A stretch of DNA of 64,000 nucleotides from Bacteroidota bacterium (GTDB lineage Bacteria; Bacteroidota; Bacteroidia; B-17B0; Aurantibacillaceae), in contig JAQZBQ010000016.1 in NCBI GenBank assembly GCA_029237825.1, positions 1-64,000 on the forward strand. The letters are read 5' to 3'. The notes beneath the pieces were generated by a model. It was not told the origin of the DNA. It did not search any database and was given only the letters and a program-made list of their open reading frames with translations. Numbering within the stretch: position 1 is the stretch's first letter; each line of letters starts with the position of its first letter. Shown here piece after piece: positions 34,931 to 55,876 of the stretch. The position numbers and the translations under genes were made by a program.

Positions 34931-37900
34931 TTATCGGTTAAGGTATTGCATCGATTCTGCTCCGTACAATTTTTTTCCGTCTTTATAAACTGTTATAAAT
35001 GCATCGTTAATTCCCAGGGAAACCGCTTCATCCTTTAATTTTTTTGCAAATTCAAAGGCATTAAAATTTCCTATGGTGTAAATATATAAGCCGTTTATGA
35101 CAACATTCTGTACTGGCCAGGTTTTTATATTTAAGAATTTTGAGGCTACTTCGTTTGGTACCTGATTCTTATAGGCCCCGATTTGCACTTTAAATGAAAT
35201 TCCTGTATCATCCGTTTTCACACCATTTTCAGGGGTTGGCGTTGGACCAGAAACGACACCGTTTGAGAACGCATTTGCAGTATTTGTATTATTTACAGGT
35301 GCCTGAACATTTGGGTTTGTAATTGTATTTGTACGTGCAGAGTTGTGGTCATTCGAGGTTACCGCAGATCCTGGAAAAATAATTGGATTTTCTTTTTCCA
35401 TTTGCAAATTATTATTTTCCGCTTGTAGTTTCTGAGCATCAGCGAAAGAAATTCGTTTCGCATTATAATATGCCGAAACAAAAGCATCTTTTACGCCAAG
35501 GTCAACAACCTTCCGCTTATCCTCAATTAATTTTCCGGTTTGGTTATAAATTCCAGCAGTGTAACGGTAAAGTCCGCTTGGTAATTTTTCCGTATAAATT
35601 GGTTTTAAATTGTTCAGCTGGGTTTTTGTGATTTGTTTAGAATAAACGCCAATCTGAACCGTGTACAACAAACCATTCAGCTTTTCTAGCTCACTGGTTA
35701 TTTCAACCGGTTGAGAATCGGTAGTGGTTGCGATAGCATTGTTTGTTGGGGCTGGAAATGGATTTCTTGGAACATTTGAGTTCGCTGTTAAACCAGCGCT
35801 TGTGTTTGTAAGTGGATCGATGATTTGTCCAGAATTTTTAGCTTGCTCCAGAGCCTCATTCAAATTGATTCGTTTTCCGTTCAAATAGGCAACTACAAAA
35901 GCATCCAAATATCCAAGATTCCTCAGGTCATTCTTTACCGCATTAGCACCAGAGTACTCGTCAAAATTTCCTGCCATGTAACGGATATATCCATTTGGTG
36001 TGGTTTGTGCAATTACCGGACTTAAACCTTTGAAGGTAGTATTTGGCAAGGGTGCTTTAAATGCGCCAATTTGTACTTTAAAAACAAGACCGTCGGGGAT
36101 TTTTTCGTCTATAGGGATAGGTTTTTCAGCAGAATAGGCGTTCGCGTTTTTCACTTCCAGTCCCTTCACTTTTATTTTAACGATATTAGCTGCTGTACTG
36201 TTATTTACAGGATTGGTAGTTTCGGATGAATTTGTTCGGTTAGCTGTATTATTCGTTGTTGCATTGTTATTGGCATTTGATCCCTGATTTGTACCTGACC
36301 TGTTTGTTTCATTTCCTGCAATAGTGGAACTATTTTGCGCCGAATTCGGATTCGAAATTTTGTTCAACGTATTGATTGCTTCGTGACCGGATTTATTGGC
36401 ATCAATTAATAGGTTTTTCTTTTTAAACGGATCGGATGTTTGGTTAGCTTCCGCTACAAGATTTTGCTGTTTTTTATAAGCCGCCTGTGCATTTGTTTTC
36501 TGTACAGATTGGTTGGAGTTTAATGCTGATGGTAGATTTAGAAGAAGCGTCTTAAATTCTTTTTCATTGGCTTGTGCTAAAAGTGATAAACCTTCAATAT
36601 GATTTTGGTTGGTTGTGTTTAGCTTATTTTTTGTTTCACTTAACTTCTGAAGAGCCTCAGGGTTACTCTCATTAATTTCAGCTTTCCTTGGAATATAATT
36701 CGGGAAATGTTTTTTATAGATTTCCAGTATTGCTTGTTGTTTTGCAATGGCTTCATTTTCTTTTTCCTCAGCATTATTAAAACCGCCAAGTTTAGCTGCA
36801 TCATTCGGGTAACCATTTGCTTCTGTTCTTAAATTGTTAGCTTGTTTCAATAGAAGCGTAGCTTCATTAAGTTGCATGTCTACCGTACCGAGATCGCCTA
36901 TATTTTTACCTTTTGCTAAAACGGCTAGTTCTTCAAGACTACTTTTATTGGCTTCAAATACTGCCTTGTTCAACTGCAGTTGTTTGTTTGCAGCTTCTAA
37001 CTTTTTTTCAATAGCAGCAGCTTCCATTCTCTTAGCATTAGCAATATCGCTTTCTTTTTCTGCCGTGGATTTTGATATAGCTGATTTTCGCAAGGCCGAA
37101 GCATCTTCATTCAACTTGTCTGCTTCAGATACTAAGGCGGAAATTGTTTGTTGATTCAACGGTGCTTTTTCGGACTGATCAGATAAAGTATTAATATTGT
37201 CAAGCTCAGAACTAATCTTTCGATCTTCCTCTAACGCCGAATTGATTTTTATTACAGCGTCGTTTTTCAATGTAATTGCCTCGTTATTTGAATACGCATC
37301 GAAAGCTGTTAGGCTCGATTCAGCACTGTTATTTAAGGTTGATTTTATTTTTGATACTTCATCACCAATCCCTTTAGCGTTAATGGTTGCTAAGTTGGTA
37401 AGTTCCGTTGCGGAGTTAGTGTTTTCTTTTCCAGCATTCGCAGAATTATTTGCCGTTATTTGAGTGTTTGGATTCTCTGCGTTGTTGTTATTATTTTCCG
37501 TTGGATTGGCTGTGACGTTTGTGGTTGTCGCATTACCATTATCGGAATTGGTAGTAACCTGGTTGTTTGATGACTGATCGGCAGATGTCTGATTTCCGGC
37601 ATCCTTATTCGAATTTGTATTTTCGTTTGTCGTACGATTTGTCGCACTTGTCTCATTCCCGTTATTTTTGCTCCCGTTATCGGTCACACCATTTATATTA
37701 CTGGTCTTAGATTCCTGATTTGATGCAACTGCCGTTGTAGATTTCAATAGTTCCGTTGCCTGGTCAAACGATTTTAGGGCTGCAATTTCTTTTTCATTTG
37801 CCTTTAATAACAGATTCGCTTTTTCGGTTGGTGTTTTTGCTAAAACCGATTGACCAATCAGTGTTTTGGCTTCTGAATTGAGTTGATCTGCTGAAGCTTT

Positions 37901-40900
37901 TAAATTTTGAGCCTCTTTGTTTTCCGGAGACTTAAATAAAGGGTTCTGTATCAATTGATTGTTTTGATTCGCCAGTTGTGCCTGATTTACTTTACTTAAT
38001 TCTAAATAGGCGTCGATTTGTGATTGAGATGTTTTTGTAATTTGATTATTGATAGCATTGATTATTTCTGTTGAATTTGGAGCTGCATCCACAGCTTTCA
38101 TTTTGTAAGTTGGGTTTACTTTTAATAATATATTCAGTGCTTTCTGTTGTTTTGCGAGGACTTCATTTTCTTTTTCTTCCGCGTTTTCTAAGCCACCCAA
38201 TTTAGCTGCGCCAGCTGGATAATTCTCAGCCTCGGTTCTTAATTTCTGAGCCTGTTTAAAGTTTAATGCAGCTTCGTCTATGAGTAAGTTTGCCTGCGAA
38301 ATATCATTGCCGGTTTTGTCGCCTGTTAATTTTTTTAATTCAGTAAGGTTTAACGCATTGTTTTCAAAATTCGATTTATTTTTAGTAAGCGTTAGGTTTG
38401 CAGCTTCAAGCTTTTTATCGGTAGCGAGTTTTTCATTCTCGGTTGCAAGTTTAACGAGGTCATCTTTTTCTGAACCGGTTTTACCTGCGGATTCTTTCCT
38501 TTGTTCAAGCGCCTTCGCATTCAGGTTTTCTGCCTCTGTTAAAATACTTTCGGGCGATTGAACCGTAGCTTGGGAGAACATGTTTTCTGCTGAAGTAATT
38601 AATTTAGAAAGTTCATTCTCATTATTTTTTGCTGTCTCAAATTTTTGTGATAGTGTTCCTTTACTTATTGTGATGTTTTTTTCATTGTTACTGTTATAAG
38701 CGAAAATTTCTTTTGCAGCATTTGAGTTCTCACTTAAAGCGCTTTTTACTGTTTTGATTTCATTAAGGATGGCTTTTTTGTCGCTATTAGAATTAATGCT
38801 GATTGGTTTAATAGGTGCATTATCGGCCGCCAAACTATTCGTATTATTAATGGTTTCACTGGCATTTTCGTTTCCGGATGAAGTATTATTAGCGTTTGAA
38901 TTCGGATTGGAACTGTTGGTGTTACCTGATTCAGTTTGGCTGTTGCGTGCAACCGATTCTGTTTCGTTTAGTGCCGCGGTATTGGATGCAAGCAGCTTGT
39001 TATTTTCTGTTACCAGGGCCTGAATCTTGGAAACTTCCTTATTAAAACTTTCCTTAATTTGTTGATCGGTTGTTTGGGAGGCCTGGTTTTCAATAGAAGA
39101 AATTAAATTGGTTAACTCGTTATTATACGAATTCAATGCCTCATTTTGGGCACTTAAGGATGCGTTATCGGTTTTATTAGAGTTTGTATTTATTTGACTG
39201 GCGTACTTATTTTTAATTTCATTAAAGGTTTCCGAAACTTTTGTTATTGCGTCAACATTGTTATTAGATTGGGTATCGCCACTTTTATTTTCTGTACTGT
39301 TTGAATTAATGGCGACGTTTGCCCCGTTTAATTCATTTAAGGTTGAATTATTGGAAGCAATACGTGCATTGTTTTGGTTTTTTTGATTCTCAAGTTGAAT
39401 TACCAGCTGGTTTAATTTTTTCTTCGCATCACTATCAGATGTTTTAGAAATCTGAGCTTTCACTGAGTTCATTTGTTCATCGACTTCGTTATTGTAGGAA
39501 TTCAAAATGTCATTCTCTTTTGTAATACTTTCAGGGTGTGTTTTATTAATGGCTGCGTTATTAAGTTCTGAATCAAATTTATTTTTGAGGTCATTAAATG
39601 CAGTACTCGATTTATCAAATGGGTTAGGTGTGTTTGAAGATTCGGGTTGTTGTTGTGTTCCGTTAGAAACTGGTTCTGTGGTGCTCGTGTTGCTCGTATT
39701 TGTAGTAAGTTCACCAGAAGATTCATTAAGGATTTTTGAAGCGATATTTAGTTCCTGATTTAAACCAGCAACTTCATTTTTAAGATTCTCAATTTTTTGA
39801 TTATTTGTCGCCAGGTCTTTGTTTTTTAATTCAACTTCCGAATTCAGTTCGCGTATTTGAGCGGAAATATTTTCTTTGATTGCTTTATCACTCTCGTTTG
39901 CTAAATCTTTTTCAAGATTTTCGGCTTCCGTTCTAATAGCATTAATTTCATTCTGTATACCTGCGCTTTTCTTTTCAGAATTTGTTAATTCCTGTTGTTT
40001 TAAACTGGCTTCAGCTTTTAAAGAATTGAGCAATTCATTTGACTGATTTTTTTCTTGTGAAATTGCATCAAGTTCTTTTTGGATCTCCGCTAGTTTTGCA
40101 AGGGACTCTTTATTGTTTTTGTTCTTAATAACAGCCTCCAATTGCTTGATGTATTGATTGGTAAGTTCGGCTTCTTTTTGTTGAATAGAAGCGTCTACTT
40201 CCAGCTTTTTAGCAAGGTTTGTGGCAGTGTTTGCAACGTTAGTAGCAATTTTAGCTTCTTCTTTTAACTGATTAGCCTTCGTTAGTTCTTCATTCTTTTT
40301 AACTACATCCGAGATCAGATTTGCATTCGCGAGAGCTTCATCCGCTGCTTTTTGTTTTTCCACGGATTCCGCAGTCATTTGGGTTGCCAGGCCAAACGCG
40401 TCCTGTGCTTCTTGTTTAAGTTTTGCCGCTTCATTACTGGCTTCCTGCGCGTCTGATTTTGCGATGTCTAATAATTGTTCGTTTGTTACGTTTTTGGTAG
40501 TGTTGTCCTCGCTTTGAACAGTTGGATTCGTTGTGCTGACAGAATTTAATGGTTGTTTTTCGCTAGTGGCGTTTTGATTTTTCTGGCCGTCTTTTAGTAA
40601 ACTATTATTATAAGGTTCTGTTTCGTTCACCTCAAGCTTCGCCTTTTTTTCGATGAAATCAATCATCATGGAGTAATTTTCATCAGTAACTTCACCGTCG
40701 AAATAATTGATAATTTTCAGGATTTTATTATCGTAAGAAATAAGTTGCTTATAGGGTTTCAAGGTATAAGCAACAGGAATCTGAACCGCGTCTGATTGTG
40801 TCGCGATACCCGGTGTTTCCACTGTGAAAAGAAATTTACCGCCATTAGGCAGTTCCAAATTATAATCTCCATTATCCAGCGCGAGGAAAACGCCAACGAT

Positions 40901-42070
40901 TTCTCCGTTTTCCATATTTTTAACTGAAATTTTTGATTTCACACTTTGCGACGCTTCTTCTTTAACTACAGAACCTTTAACCACAGCTGAATTCATCGGG
41001 CGCCGTTCGGTATTAATTTTTAGAACATCCAGTTTTCCATAAGGGCTATATCGTCCCGTACTGAAAAAAGCTGTTTTCTCAAGTGAGTCAGTTACAAATA
41101 GAATATCGTCATCCGGCGAGTTAATCGGGAATTCAAGGTTCTCGGGCTTACTCCAGGTTTGGGTGGTTTCATCGTATGTGGTTTTAAACACGTCATAACC
41201 TCCCATACTGTTAAAACCTTTTGAACTAAAGTAAAGTGTTTTACCATTGGGATGCAGAAATGGATAGTCTTCGTCAAATTCCGTATTTATGGTAGCCGGT
41301 AACATTGTAGGTTTGCTCCAGGTTCCGTTCGGAAGTTTATTAACAAAATAAATATCTCTTCCCGTATTGCCACTTTCTCCGTAACTTGAATAATAAAGGC
41401 GTTCGGCTTTTCGGGAGAGATACACCACCGATTTGTCTTTCTTCTTTTTATCATAGGGGGTTTTGTAATCGTCGGGTTTCACCAGTAATTTCCCGCCAAT
41501 ATCTTTCACATCATACCCTCTGTAATAGTCGGCTTCATTCAGCTGTTTCTTAGACATAACCACTAAGTCAGTAAGGTTTGAAAGAAGTCGTTTCCCGTTT
41601 TTACATGCCTGTATCTCACGGTCAACCTGAAGTTTTTTTATGGATGAAGAACTGGCAGTTTTTTTATAATCAGTATAGAGTTTTATCGCTTCATCAAAAC
41701 GGTAATTGATGTGGTAGGTTTTAGCAAGGTAAAAAAGGGCGTCCTTAGGTGCGTCAGTTGGATTCTTTGTAGCAATTTGCAGGTATGAGAATGGCTTTTT
41801 CTTGTCCGGCTCCGTATATAACATGCACACACCCAATTTGTAATTATATTCGGGATCTTTTGGATAGAGCGAAACGAGTTGTGCAAAATGTTTATAGGCC
41901 AGGTTGTAATCCTCGTCCTCGAAATGTTTTTCGGCTTGTTTTTTAAGGTCATCTTCGCTTTTCACCTGCGAAAAAGCTAATTGGGAATAAAACAGAAAAC
42001 AAAAAATTAATAAAAAGCCAGAATAAGCCCTTTTAACCGGAAATATATATGTGATCTGATACAGATTCAA
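34931..42070 (-). CDS. Giant envelope protein: TPR, PD40 propeller, duplicated coiled-coil blocks, three SPOR domains
   Basis: This 2379-residue protein starts at TTG (42070), as no ATG precedes the signal-like segment SGFLLIFCFLFYSQLAFSQ. Residues about 36-160 are TPR-like. Residues 215-360 hold PD40/WD40-like propeller blades (LYFSSKGFNSMGGYDVFK). A beta-domain at about 370-440 comes before a long coiled coil at 533-790. Two related blocks follow at about 813-920 and 935-1043, then two larger related blocks at about 1097-1447 and 1565-1903, each flanked by Asn/Thr-rich linkers. Three SPOR domains end the protein, starting near 1990, 2133 and 2290 (FKVQIGAFK, YTVQIGVYS, FKVQIGAYK). The N-terminal order resembles PorE-type T9SS proteins, but the OmpA domain is absent. 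SPOR domains bind denuded peptidoglycan; a cell-envelope anchoring role is inferred. Confidence 0.85.
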   Translation of the reverse strand: MNLYQITYIFPVKRAYSGFLLIFCFLFYSQLAFSQVKSEDDLKKQAEKHFEDEDYNLAYKHFAQLVSLYPKDPEYNYKLGVCMLYTEPDKKKPFSYLQIATKNPTDAPKDALFYLAKTYHINYRFDEAIKLYTDYKKTASSSSIKKLQVDREIQACKNGKRLLSNLTDLVVMSKKQLNEADYYRGYDVKDIGGKLLVKPDDYKTPYDKKKKDKSVVYLSRKAERLYYSSYGESGNTGRDIYFVNKLPNGTWSKPTMLPATINTEFDEDYPFLHPNGKTLYFSSKGFNSMGGYDVFKTTYDETTQTWSKPENLEFPINSPDDDILFVTDSLEKTAFFSTGRYSPYGKLDVLKINTERRPMNSAVVKGSVVKEEASQSVKSKISVKNMENGEIVGVFLALDNGDYNLELPNGGKFLFTVETPGIATQSDAVQIPVAYTLKPYKQLISYDNKILKIINYFDGEVTDENYSMMIDFIEKKAKLEVNETEPYNNSLLKDGQKNQNATSEKQPLNSVSTTNPTVQSEDNTTKNVTNEQLLDIAKSDAQEASNEAAKLKQEAQDAFGLATQMTAESVEKQKAADEALANANLISDVVKKNEELTKANQLKEEAKIATNVANTATNLAKKLEVDASIQQKEAELTNQYIKQLEAVIKNKNNKESLAKLAEIQKELDAISQEKNQSNELLNSLKAEASLKQQELTNSEKKSAGIQNEINAIRTEAENLEKDLANESDKAIKENISAQIRELNSEVELKNKDLATNNQKIENLKNEVAGLNQELNIASKILNESSGELTTNTSNTSTTEPVSNGTQQQPESSNTPNPFDKSSTAFNDLKNKFDSELNNAAINKTHPESITKENDILNSYNNEVDEQMNSVKAQISKTSDSDAKKKLNQLVIQLENQKNQNNARIASNNSTLNELNGANVAINSNSTENKSGDTQSNNNVDAITKVSETFNEIKNKYASQINTNSNKTDNASLSAQNEALNSYNNELTNLISSIENQASQTTDQQIKESFNKEVSKIQALVTENNKLLASNTAALNETESVARNSQTESGNTNSSNPNSNANNTSSGNENASETINNTNSLAADNAPIKPISINSNSDKKAILNEIKTVKSALSENSNAAKEIFAYNSNNEKNITISKGTLSQKFETAKNNENELSKLITSAENMFSQATVQSPESILTEAENLNAKALEQRKESAGKTGSEKDDLVKLATENEKLATDKKLEAANLTLTKNKSNFENNALNLTELKKLTGDKTGNDISQANLLIDEAALNFKQAQKLRTEAENYPAGAAKLGGLENAEEKENEVLAKQQKALNILLKVNPTYKMKAVDAAPNSTEIINAINNQITKTSQSQIDAYLELSKVNQAQLANQNNQLIQNPLFKSPENKEAQNLKASADQLNSEAKTLIGQSVLAKTPTEKANLLLKANEKEIAALKSFDQATELLKSTTAVASNQESKTSNINGVTDNGSKNNGNETSATNRTTNENTNSNKDAGNQTSADQSSNNQVTTNSDNGNATTTNVTANPTENNNNNAENPNTQITANNSANAGKENTNSATELTNLATINAKGIGDEVSKIKSTLNNSAESSLTAFDAYSNNEAITLKNDAVIKINSALEEDRKISSELDNINTLSDQSEKAPLNQQTISALVSEADKLNEDASALRKSAISKSTAEKESDIANAKRMEAAAIEKKLEAANKQLQLNKAVFEANKSSLEELAVLAKGKNIGDLGTVDMQLNEATLLLKQANNLRTEANGYPNDAAKLGGFNNAEEKENEAIAKQQAILEIYKKHFPNYIPRKAEINESNPEALQKLSETKNKLNTTNQNHIEGLSLLAQANEKEFKTLLLNLPSALNSNQSVQKTNAQAAYKKQQNLVAEANQTSDPFKKKNLLIDANKSGHEAINTLNKISNPNSAQNSSTIAGNETNRSGTNQGSNANNNATTNNTANRTNSSETTNPVNNSTAANIVKIKVKGLEVKNANAYSAEKPIPIDEKIPDGLVFKVQIGAFKAPLPNTTFKGLSPVIAQTTPNGYIRYMAGNFDEYSGANAVKNDLRNLGYLDAFVVAYLNGKRINLNEALEQAKNSGQIIDPLTNTSAGLTANSNVPRNPFPAPTNNAIATTTDSQPVEITSELEKLNGLLYTVQIGVYSKQITKTQLNNLKPIYTEKLPSGLYRYTAGIYNQTGKLIEDKRKVVDLGVKDAFVSAYYNAKRISFADAQKLQAENNNLQMEKENPIIFPGSAVTSNDHNSARTNTITNPNVQAPVNNTNTANAFSNGVVSGPTPTPENGVKTDDTGISFKVQIGAYKNQVPNEVASKFLNIKTWPVQNVVINGLYIYTIGNFNAFEFAKKLKDEAVSLGINDAFITVYKDGKKLYGAESMQYLNR

Positions 42071-54541: not shown

Positions 54542-55465
54542 ATGTTTACAACAGACCAACTTAAGGACCTTCACGAACGACATGCCGCTCTGAAGGGGTT
54601 TCTTTGACTACGATAAGAAGAGCCACGAGTTAAAGGAACTCGAAGAAAAAACCCTTGACCCCAATTTTTGGACAGATTCTAAGAAAGCTGAGGCGGTGTT
54701 AAAAGAAGTAAAGGCCCGGAAATCGTGGGTTACTTCTTACGACAAGCTTACTGCAGCTATTGACGACCTTGATACTATGTTCGAATTTTATGCATGCTGG
54801 AGCGTATGTATATGATGTGGGCAGAAAAAAATGGGTTTAAACTCACTGAACTCGATCGTACAGATGGTGATGTCGCAGGTATTAAGTCTGTTTCCATTCA
54901 AATTGATGGAGAATATGCTTATGGTAACCTGAAAGGCGAAAACGGTGTTCACCGCTTAGTTAGAATTAGTCCGTTTGACAGTAACGCTAAGCGCCATACG
55001 TCGTTTGCTTCGGTATATGTTTATCCCGTGGTAGATGATACGATTGAGATCAATATCCATCCAAATGATATTGAAATGAGCACTTCCAGGAGTGGAGGCG
55101 CAGGAGGACAGAACGTGAATAAAGTGGAATCAAAAGTTCAGCTCACGCACAAACCAACAGGAATTGTGGTTGTTTGTCAGGTTGAACGGTCTCAGCTTGG
55201 GAACCGTGAAAAGGCCATGCAAATGTTACGCTCACAGTTATATGAACTTGAGATGAGAAAGCGGAACGAAGCGCGCGATGCAGTGGAAGAAGGTAAAATG
55301 AAGATTGAATGGGGCTCACAGATTCGAAGTTACGTGTTACATCCCTACAAAATGGTAAACGATCACCGTACTGAATTAAAAATTACTGATGCCGAAGGCG
55401 TTTTAAATGGTAACATTGATGAATTATTAAAAACGTTTTTAATGAGTCAGGGTAAAAGGAAATAA
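54542..55465 (+). pseudogene. prfB: Peptide chain release factor 2, disrupted by an internal deletion
   Basis: Release factor 2 ends translation at TGA and TAA. The N-terminus MFTTDQLKDLHERHAALKGFL stops at TGA (54605), followed in +1 frame by DYDKKSHELKELEEK up to FEFY, where the frame breaks at about 54792. The frame then jumps to [14 protein letters not shown] (54794), which continues to a normal end and contains the stop-codon tripeptide SPF and the catalytic [10 protein letters not shown]. Compared with the family, about 57 residues (from the FY-E-G segment to the AGAGGTES..DW segment before MLxRMYxMW) are missing, and the join is not in frame. Net loss is about 169 bases. Without the deleted part, domain 1 is broken. 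Assembly error or real deletion cannot be separated here. Confidence 0.85.
54593..54608 (+). promoter_or_regulatory. Programmed +1 frameshift site of prfB
   Basis: AAGGGG (Shine-Dalgarno-like) is followed three bases later by CTT TGA C, the canonical RF2 autoregulatory shift. The ribosome slips from CTT (54602-54604) by one base past the TGA stop when RF2 is scarce. The site is intact although the downstream gene is damaged. Confidence 0.92.
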
Positions 55466-55516: not shown

Positions 55517-55876
55517 ATGAGTAAGAATAAAATTCAGATATTGTATAATCCCCGATGCAGTAAATGCCGGGAGGCTTTGAGTTTATTGGAAGGTGAAAAT
55601 TGTGAAGTAGAAATCAAAGAGTACTTGAAGGAATCTTTAACCAAAAAGGAATTGAAAAATATTCTGGCAAAATTAGGCTTAAAAGCGTTTGATATTGTTC
55701 GTCAAAAGGAAAGTGTATTTATCAAAAAATTTAAAAATAAGAAGTTTACAAATGAAGAATGGATTCAAATTTTGCTTGAAAATCCTGTTTTGATTGAAAG
55801 ACCTATTGTAATAGATGGATACAAGGCTATAATTGGAAGACCGCCCGAATTGGTTATTGATCTGGTTAACCGCTAA
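55517..55876 (+). CDS. ArsC/Spx-like thioredoxin-fold protein
   Basis: The ATG at 55517 begins the thioredoxin-like fold MSKNKIQILYNPRCSKCREAL, with Cys14 and Cys17 as a C-x-x-C pair; the in-frame upstream extension is unlikely. The 119-residue length fits the ArsC/Spx family. Features NILAKLGLKAFDIVRQKE and the late PIVIDGYKAIIGRPPELV match the arsenate reductase (glutaredoxin type) pattern. True arsenate reduction versus a Spx-like or unrelated thiol role cannot be decided. No ars genes are adjacent. Confidence 0.85.
   Translation: MSKNKIQILYNPRCSKCREALSLLEGENCEVEIKEYLKESLTKKELKNILAKLGLKAFDIVRQKESVFIKKFKNKKFTNEEWIQILLENPVLIERPIVIDGYKAIIGRPPELVIDLVNR

Follow-up and report, generated by a model that had tools for sequence, protein, structure and literature searches.

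How does a bacterium end its UGA-terminated genes when prfB, the gene for release factor 2 (RF2), is written in its genome as a broken gene? The question is raised by positions 54542-55465 (+ strand) of the window, the whole 64,000-nucleotide stretch of DNA analysed here (positions 1-64,000 of the forward strand of contig JAQZBQ010000016.1, assembly GCA_029237825.1), which belongs to a Bacteroidota bacterium of the Aurantibacillaceae. RF2 is essential in E. coli, and presumably in this organism as well.

The prfB locus and its missing bases

The start codon, the +1 frameshift site, the SPF tripeptide and the GGQ motif were all retained in prfB, as the first-pass annotation had stated (Table 1). 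SPF and GGQ, which we take to be the RF2 motifs of the RF-1 domain, are both present in that domain, as in a functional RF2, and the C-terminal part of the gene was 97% identical to a same-genus RF2. The frameshift site is present but joins no continuous frame: the shifted frame reaches FEFY, runs past the join into a tail of seven out-of-frame codons (ACWSVCI) and closes at TGA 54813-54815. As written, the zero frame gives 21 residues and the shifted frame a 90-residue fragment, with the remainder of the protein in another frame. The PCRF domain is incomplete and split over two frames, and the GAGGTE-type segment required for a complete PCRF domain is absent. A normal RF2 cannot come from prfB as written in the window. 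Directly downstream, before atpD, lies an ArsC-family gene (55517-55876), and this stretch was matched in eight of 10 relatives' loci, two of which are the same record.

Table 1. Features of the prfB locus, in window coordinates.
Feature	Position	Strand	Basis or remark
prfB zero frame, start ATG to in-frame TGA (21 codons, then TGA)	54542..54607	+	ORF reading
Programmed +1 frameshift motif AAGGGG-TTT-CTT-TGA-C	54593..54608	+	TGA at 54605-54607
+1 frame, RF2 N-terminal fragment, 69 codons then TGA	54606..54815	+	PCRF profile positions 3-55 of 194
Join, 169 bases of relatives missing here	54791..54792	+	Alignment and BLAST against relatives
RF2 C-terminal part, 223 codons, SPF and GGQ, unshifted frame	54794..55465	+	PCRF positions 121-194 of 194; RF-1 domain 2-116 of 116

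Alignment with 18 same-genus prfB genes, all of them whole, placed the loss at 169 columns after TTTTAT (ending at 54791), beyond which the window continues with GC (54792-54793) and then ATGCTG. An equal offset of 169 bases was obtained by BLAST in the relatives' loci that matched both sides of the join. A jump after FEFY with about 57 residues gone, a net loss of about 169 bases (1 modulo 3) and a change of frame had all been proposed from the window alone. The alignment bears them out: exactly 169 columns are gone, equivalent to 57 codons less two bases, and the frame after the join is the unshifted frame of the start. The window keeps 62 shifted-frame and 223 downstream codons, compared with 342 after the shift in relative L005, and residues 63-119 of that 342-residue chain are missing, 57 of them whole or in part, including the segment GAGGTES-DWA. 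Aligned with a solved RF2, the missing residues correspond to about residues 87-145 of chain 9fy1_8.

The sequence TATGCATGC had been put forward as a deletion microhomology or a collapsed repeat, and found no support in the sequences of relatives. With relatives' sequences standing in for the species' own intact prfB, no base was shared across the join in 15 relatives (their bases are AAR just after the left end of the lost piece, and AGY or GAA just before the ATG or ATT at its right end), and no flanking repeat with the right spacing was found in L005 or L020; on these comparisons, ATGCATGC is not shown to be a microhomology. The lack of a shared base and the wrong spacing of the repeats argue against a simple repeat collapse, leaving as sources an error in gap closing, a read that is chimeric, or a molecule that truly carries the deletion. 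The 12-base word spanning the join has only one other occurrence in the genome. Because this word is nearly unique and no repeat or shared word is present, there are probably reads, genuine or chimeric, that cross the join.

prfB in relatives and conservation of the remaining codons

Twenty genomes of the genus, this one included, were searched with the PCRF profile, with prfB and prfA told apart by location or by score. Eighteen relatives had one prfB each, in a single frame of 343 or 346 aa; three of these (L010, L013, and L019) showed one stop under a fixed-length reading, their open frames being 343 aa nonetheless. All 18 same-genus genes had TTT-CTT-TGA-C at the equivalent place, preceded by the purine run AAGGGG in 11, AAGGGA in five, AAGGGT in one and AGGGGG in one. 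A single open frame with the GAGGTE-type segment lying 70 residues ahead of SPF was found in 18/18 loci of the genus, 11/11 of the family and 79/80 of the genome_contigs set, the last being the best 80 of the 589 matches listed; the sole miss (L066) was full length with SPY instead of SPF. Twelve records occur both among the 29 genus and family loci and among the 80, so that these make 97 distinct Bacteroidota loci, none of which had a deletion like that in the window or a split prfB. A search of phage sequences gave distant matches only, one of them the prfB of L114 (CAKLQF020000016.1). This 94-kb contig, in which the gene is annotated as prfB, goes under the label Acinetobacter phage and may be a mislabelled piece of chromosome.

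Six further relatives with a poor or no DNA match were rechecked with the PCRF profile, and four had a full prfB-like match; G055, with no match in the DNA search, yet gave two full PCRF matches. The other two had prfA-like matches only: G022 (same family, 93% complete) had one full match at a contig end, prfA by score, and no prfB was found in it, while G030 (85% complete) had one full match, prfA by score, and one weak partial. In G015 (same genus, 87% complete), neither prfB nor atpD was found, the latter being a near neighbour of prfB in G004. Conversely, prfB was present and no PCRF match was found for prfA in four drafts of the genus that are 84-99% complete (G001, G002, G011, and G014). 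Their prfA is probably missing from the drafts, with G014, at 99%, the hardest to explain. A trend toward RF2 loss in the lineage was rejected, as drafts of the genus often lack one release-factor gene, prfA as well as prfB; a single absence therefore says little.

The 285 retained prfB codons had a dN of 0.028-0.086 to 15 of the 18 genus sequences (L010, L013, and L019 were omitted), with dS saturated over the whole gene. The mean dN of the window gene, 0.052, fell inside the relatives' range of 0.044-0.086. The remaining codons being as conserved as those of relatives, the break is either very young or absent from the cells.

The rest of the sampled DNA (38.7% G+C over the whole sample) does not look error-ridden. 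When 70 proteins of relatives matching it at 60% or more were scanned for split genes, nine were split, all among the 10 prfB queries, which overlap in part (L034 and L131 are one place, as are L036 and L177), and none among the other 60. Stricter settings flagged two of the 10 prfB queries and laxer settings nine. In the reverse scan, none of 40 proteins of this genome that matched relatives was split, and the AlaRS gene was found once, as an open single copy. Six stretches of >350 bases in the window, including one at prfB, had no ORF of 100 aa. Elsewhere in the window, a 2379-codon ORF (34931-42070) had only weak PD40 and TPR matches, and a tRNA cut by the window edge (1-69) was found by Rfam and missed by ARAGORN.

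Other release factors and UGA stops

The assembly (3.55 Mb in 33 contigs, not closed, and estimated to be 99.69% complete) was searched for another RF2. The RF-1 profile had three matches, namely prfB, prfA and an ArfB-like gene of 138 codons; the PCRF profile found prfA complete and prfB as two pieces; and with a relative's RF2 as query, the two prfB pieces, prfA and the ArfB-like gene were recovered and nothing else. The second prfB that the first-pass annotation had allowed for is thus missing from the assembly by all three queries, and a second RF2 elsewhere in it was rejected. Relocation of the lost piece was rejected as well, since a relative's DNA for that piece gave chance matches only (best E 0.165).

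RF1 of this genome carries P-A-T as its tripeptide (P-A-T in two and P-S-T in three of five relatives) together with GGQ, and had private amino acids in four of 357 columns, compared with 2-13 in the others. With nothing unusual in the tripeptide, GGQ or the number of private columns, a compensating change in RF1 does not appear likely from the sequence and was rejected.

UGA behaves as an ordinary stop codon in this genome. Among mechanically predicted ORFs of at least 150 aa in 457 kb of its DNA, TGA ended 27 of 305. Under the same rule, the counts in four relatives with an intact prfB were 11/155 (G004), 12/130 (G016), 5/50 (G012), and 3/38 (G017), 31/373 in sum, so that UGA is a rare stop (7-10% of sampled ORFs) in these relatives too. 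UGA is therefore neither absent nor much reduced as a stop, in contrast to what reassignment would entail, and an altered genetic code was rejected. A Pfam domain (E 1e-5 or better) was found in 22 of the 27 TGA-ended ORFs (8/10, 8/9, and 6/8 in three batches). The TGA of dxs lies 19 residues past the last domain, and TAA is the stop in its two orthologues, which are 95% identical. Aligned ends of 34 genes (63 pairs, with relatives partly repeated) had TGA on this genome's side in four and on the relatives' side in three; TAA in a relative stood opposite TGA in three pairs, dxs accounting for two. Within the window, TGA ended two of 42 ORFs of at least 100 aa, a proportion that looks low yet is usual by the larger sample and by the relatives. 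In G015 (L129, G015:C49), TGA ended five of 141 ORFs; this genome, with no prfB found and few TGA stops, is probably an incomplete draft. An altered translation termination, another option of the earlier annotation, is accordingly not supported, TGA being as common as in the four relatives and RF1 ordinary.

Readings of the gap and known systems

Since UGA still serves this organism as a stop and no other RF2 was found, the living population most likely has an intact prfB. We put at about 0.85 the probability that the gap either arose as an artefact, in assembly or through a chimeric read, or is an inactivating deletion of very recent date carried by part of the population. The gene would then be an ordinary Bacteroidota prfB with the usual +1 autoregulatory site, its assembled sequence short by 169 bases, and the living population would carry an intact, frameshift-regulated copy that the record fails to show. 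The cells most likely hold such an intact allele. Within this reading, an artefact of assembly or of a chimeric read is the more probable cause; a dead allele of very recent origin, present in some of the sampled cells, is less probable. Against an artefact count the lack of a repeat or shared word through which an assembly graph could collapse and the clean state of the rest of the sampled DNA, which together lean towards a real molecule. The assembly error suggested at first thus persists as the best reading together with a very recent dead allele, and its proposed form, a collapse at TATGCATGC, is unsupported.

If instead the deletion were fixed and the remnant still worked, the 223-residue part could be translated from ATG 54794 by coupling, giving a truncated RF2 that the N-terminal fragment might assist in trans. 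In favour of this, there is a 22-base overlap between the new start and the upstream frame, whose stop is at 54813-54815, and the RF-1 domain is retained whole, SPF and GGQ included. Codons of both parts are still conserved, although a very recent break would show equal conservation. Such a protein would lack the first 120 of the 194 PCRF positions, and since each of the 97 distinct loci has the GAGGTE-type segment lost here and none is split in this way, we regard it as very unlikely. A further intact prfB, located on an unbinned replicon or in genomic sequence that was not assembled, is highly improbable: the assembly is not closed, its 33 contigs leave room, and genus drafts do miss single release-factor genes, whereas its estimated completeness of 99.69%, the absence of a second copy from it and the single prfB in each of the 18 relatives having one speak against this. 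Least probable of all is a true loss of RF2, in which RF1, rescue factors or drop-off would deal with UGA while it drifts to reassignment. The rarity of UGA stops even in relatives with an intact prfB would lower the cost of such a loss, and the genome has an ArfB-like gene; yet UGA is as frequent here as in the four relatives, three TGA ends face TAA in a relative (dxs twice), and the amount of change in RF1 is not unusual. It is very doubtful that normal RF2 was recently lost from a Bacteroidota lineage whose genome is of full size, and that UGA stops are dealt with there by a two-piece or shortened RF2 from overlapping frames, or by RF1 and rescue factors.

The gap in prfB is most likely not a new way to end translation. 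If real and fixed, it would mean that this bacterium lacks normal RF2 yet goes on using UGA as a stop, a condition that is expected only as a passing stage before codon reassignment. For now its chief value is as a caution: when one draft genome shows an essential gene broken, the reads should be consulted before any biological meaning is drawn from it. Hodgkinia is one reduced symbiont known to lack RF2 and to read UGA as Trp.

A literature search, which was not exhaustive, found no prfB with a comparable break. The window shares motif order, spacing, the TGA stop and the following C with the ordinary bacterial +1-frameshift prfB (PMC12421855), and differs in lacking 169 bases, with no full RF2 possible. 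The same source reports 34 genomes, mostly the only one of their species, in which prfA is annotated as a pseudogene with no other functional copy, and leaves sequencing error open. These likewise have an apparently broken release-factor gene, although there it is prfA, with premature stops needing a frameshift, and here prfB, with an internal deletion. RF2-less genomes that read UGA as Trp are described for Mycoplasmatota (PMC12421855) and for a reduced symbiont (PMC2704378). The present assembly resembles them in being without an intact RF2; in contrast to them, its genome uses UGA stops at the rate of its relatives and, at 3.55 Mb, is not reduced.
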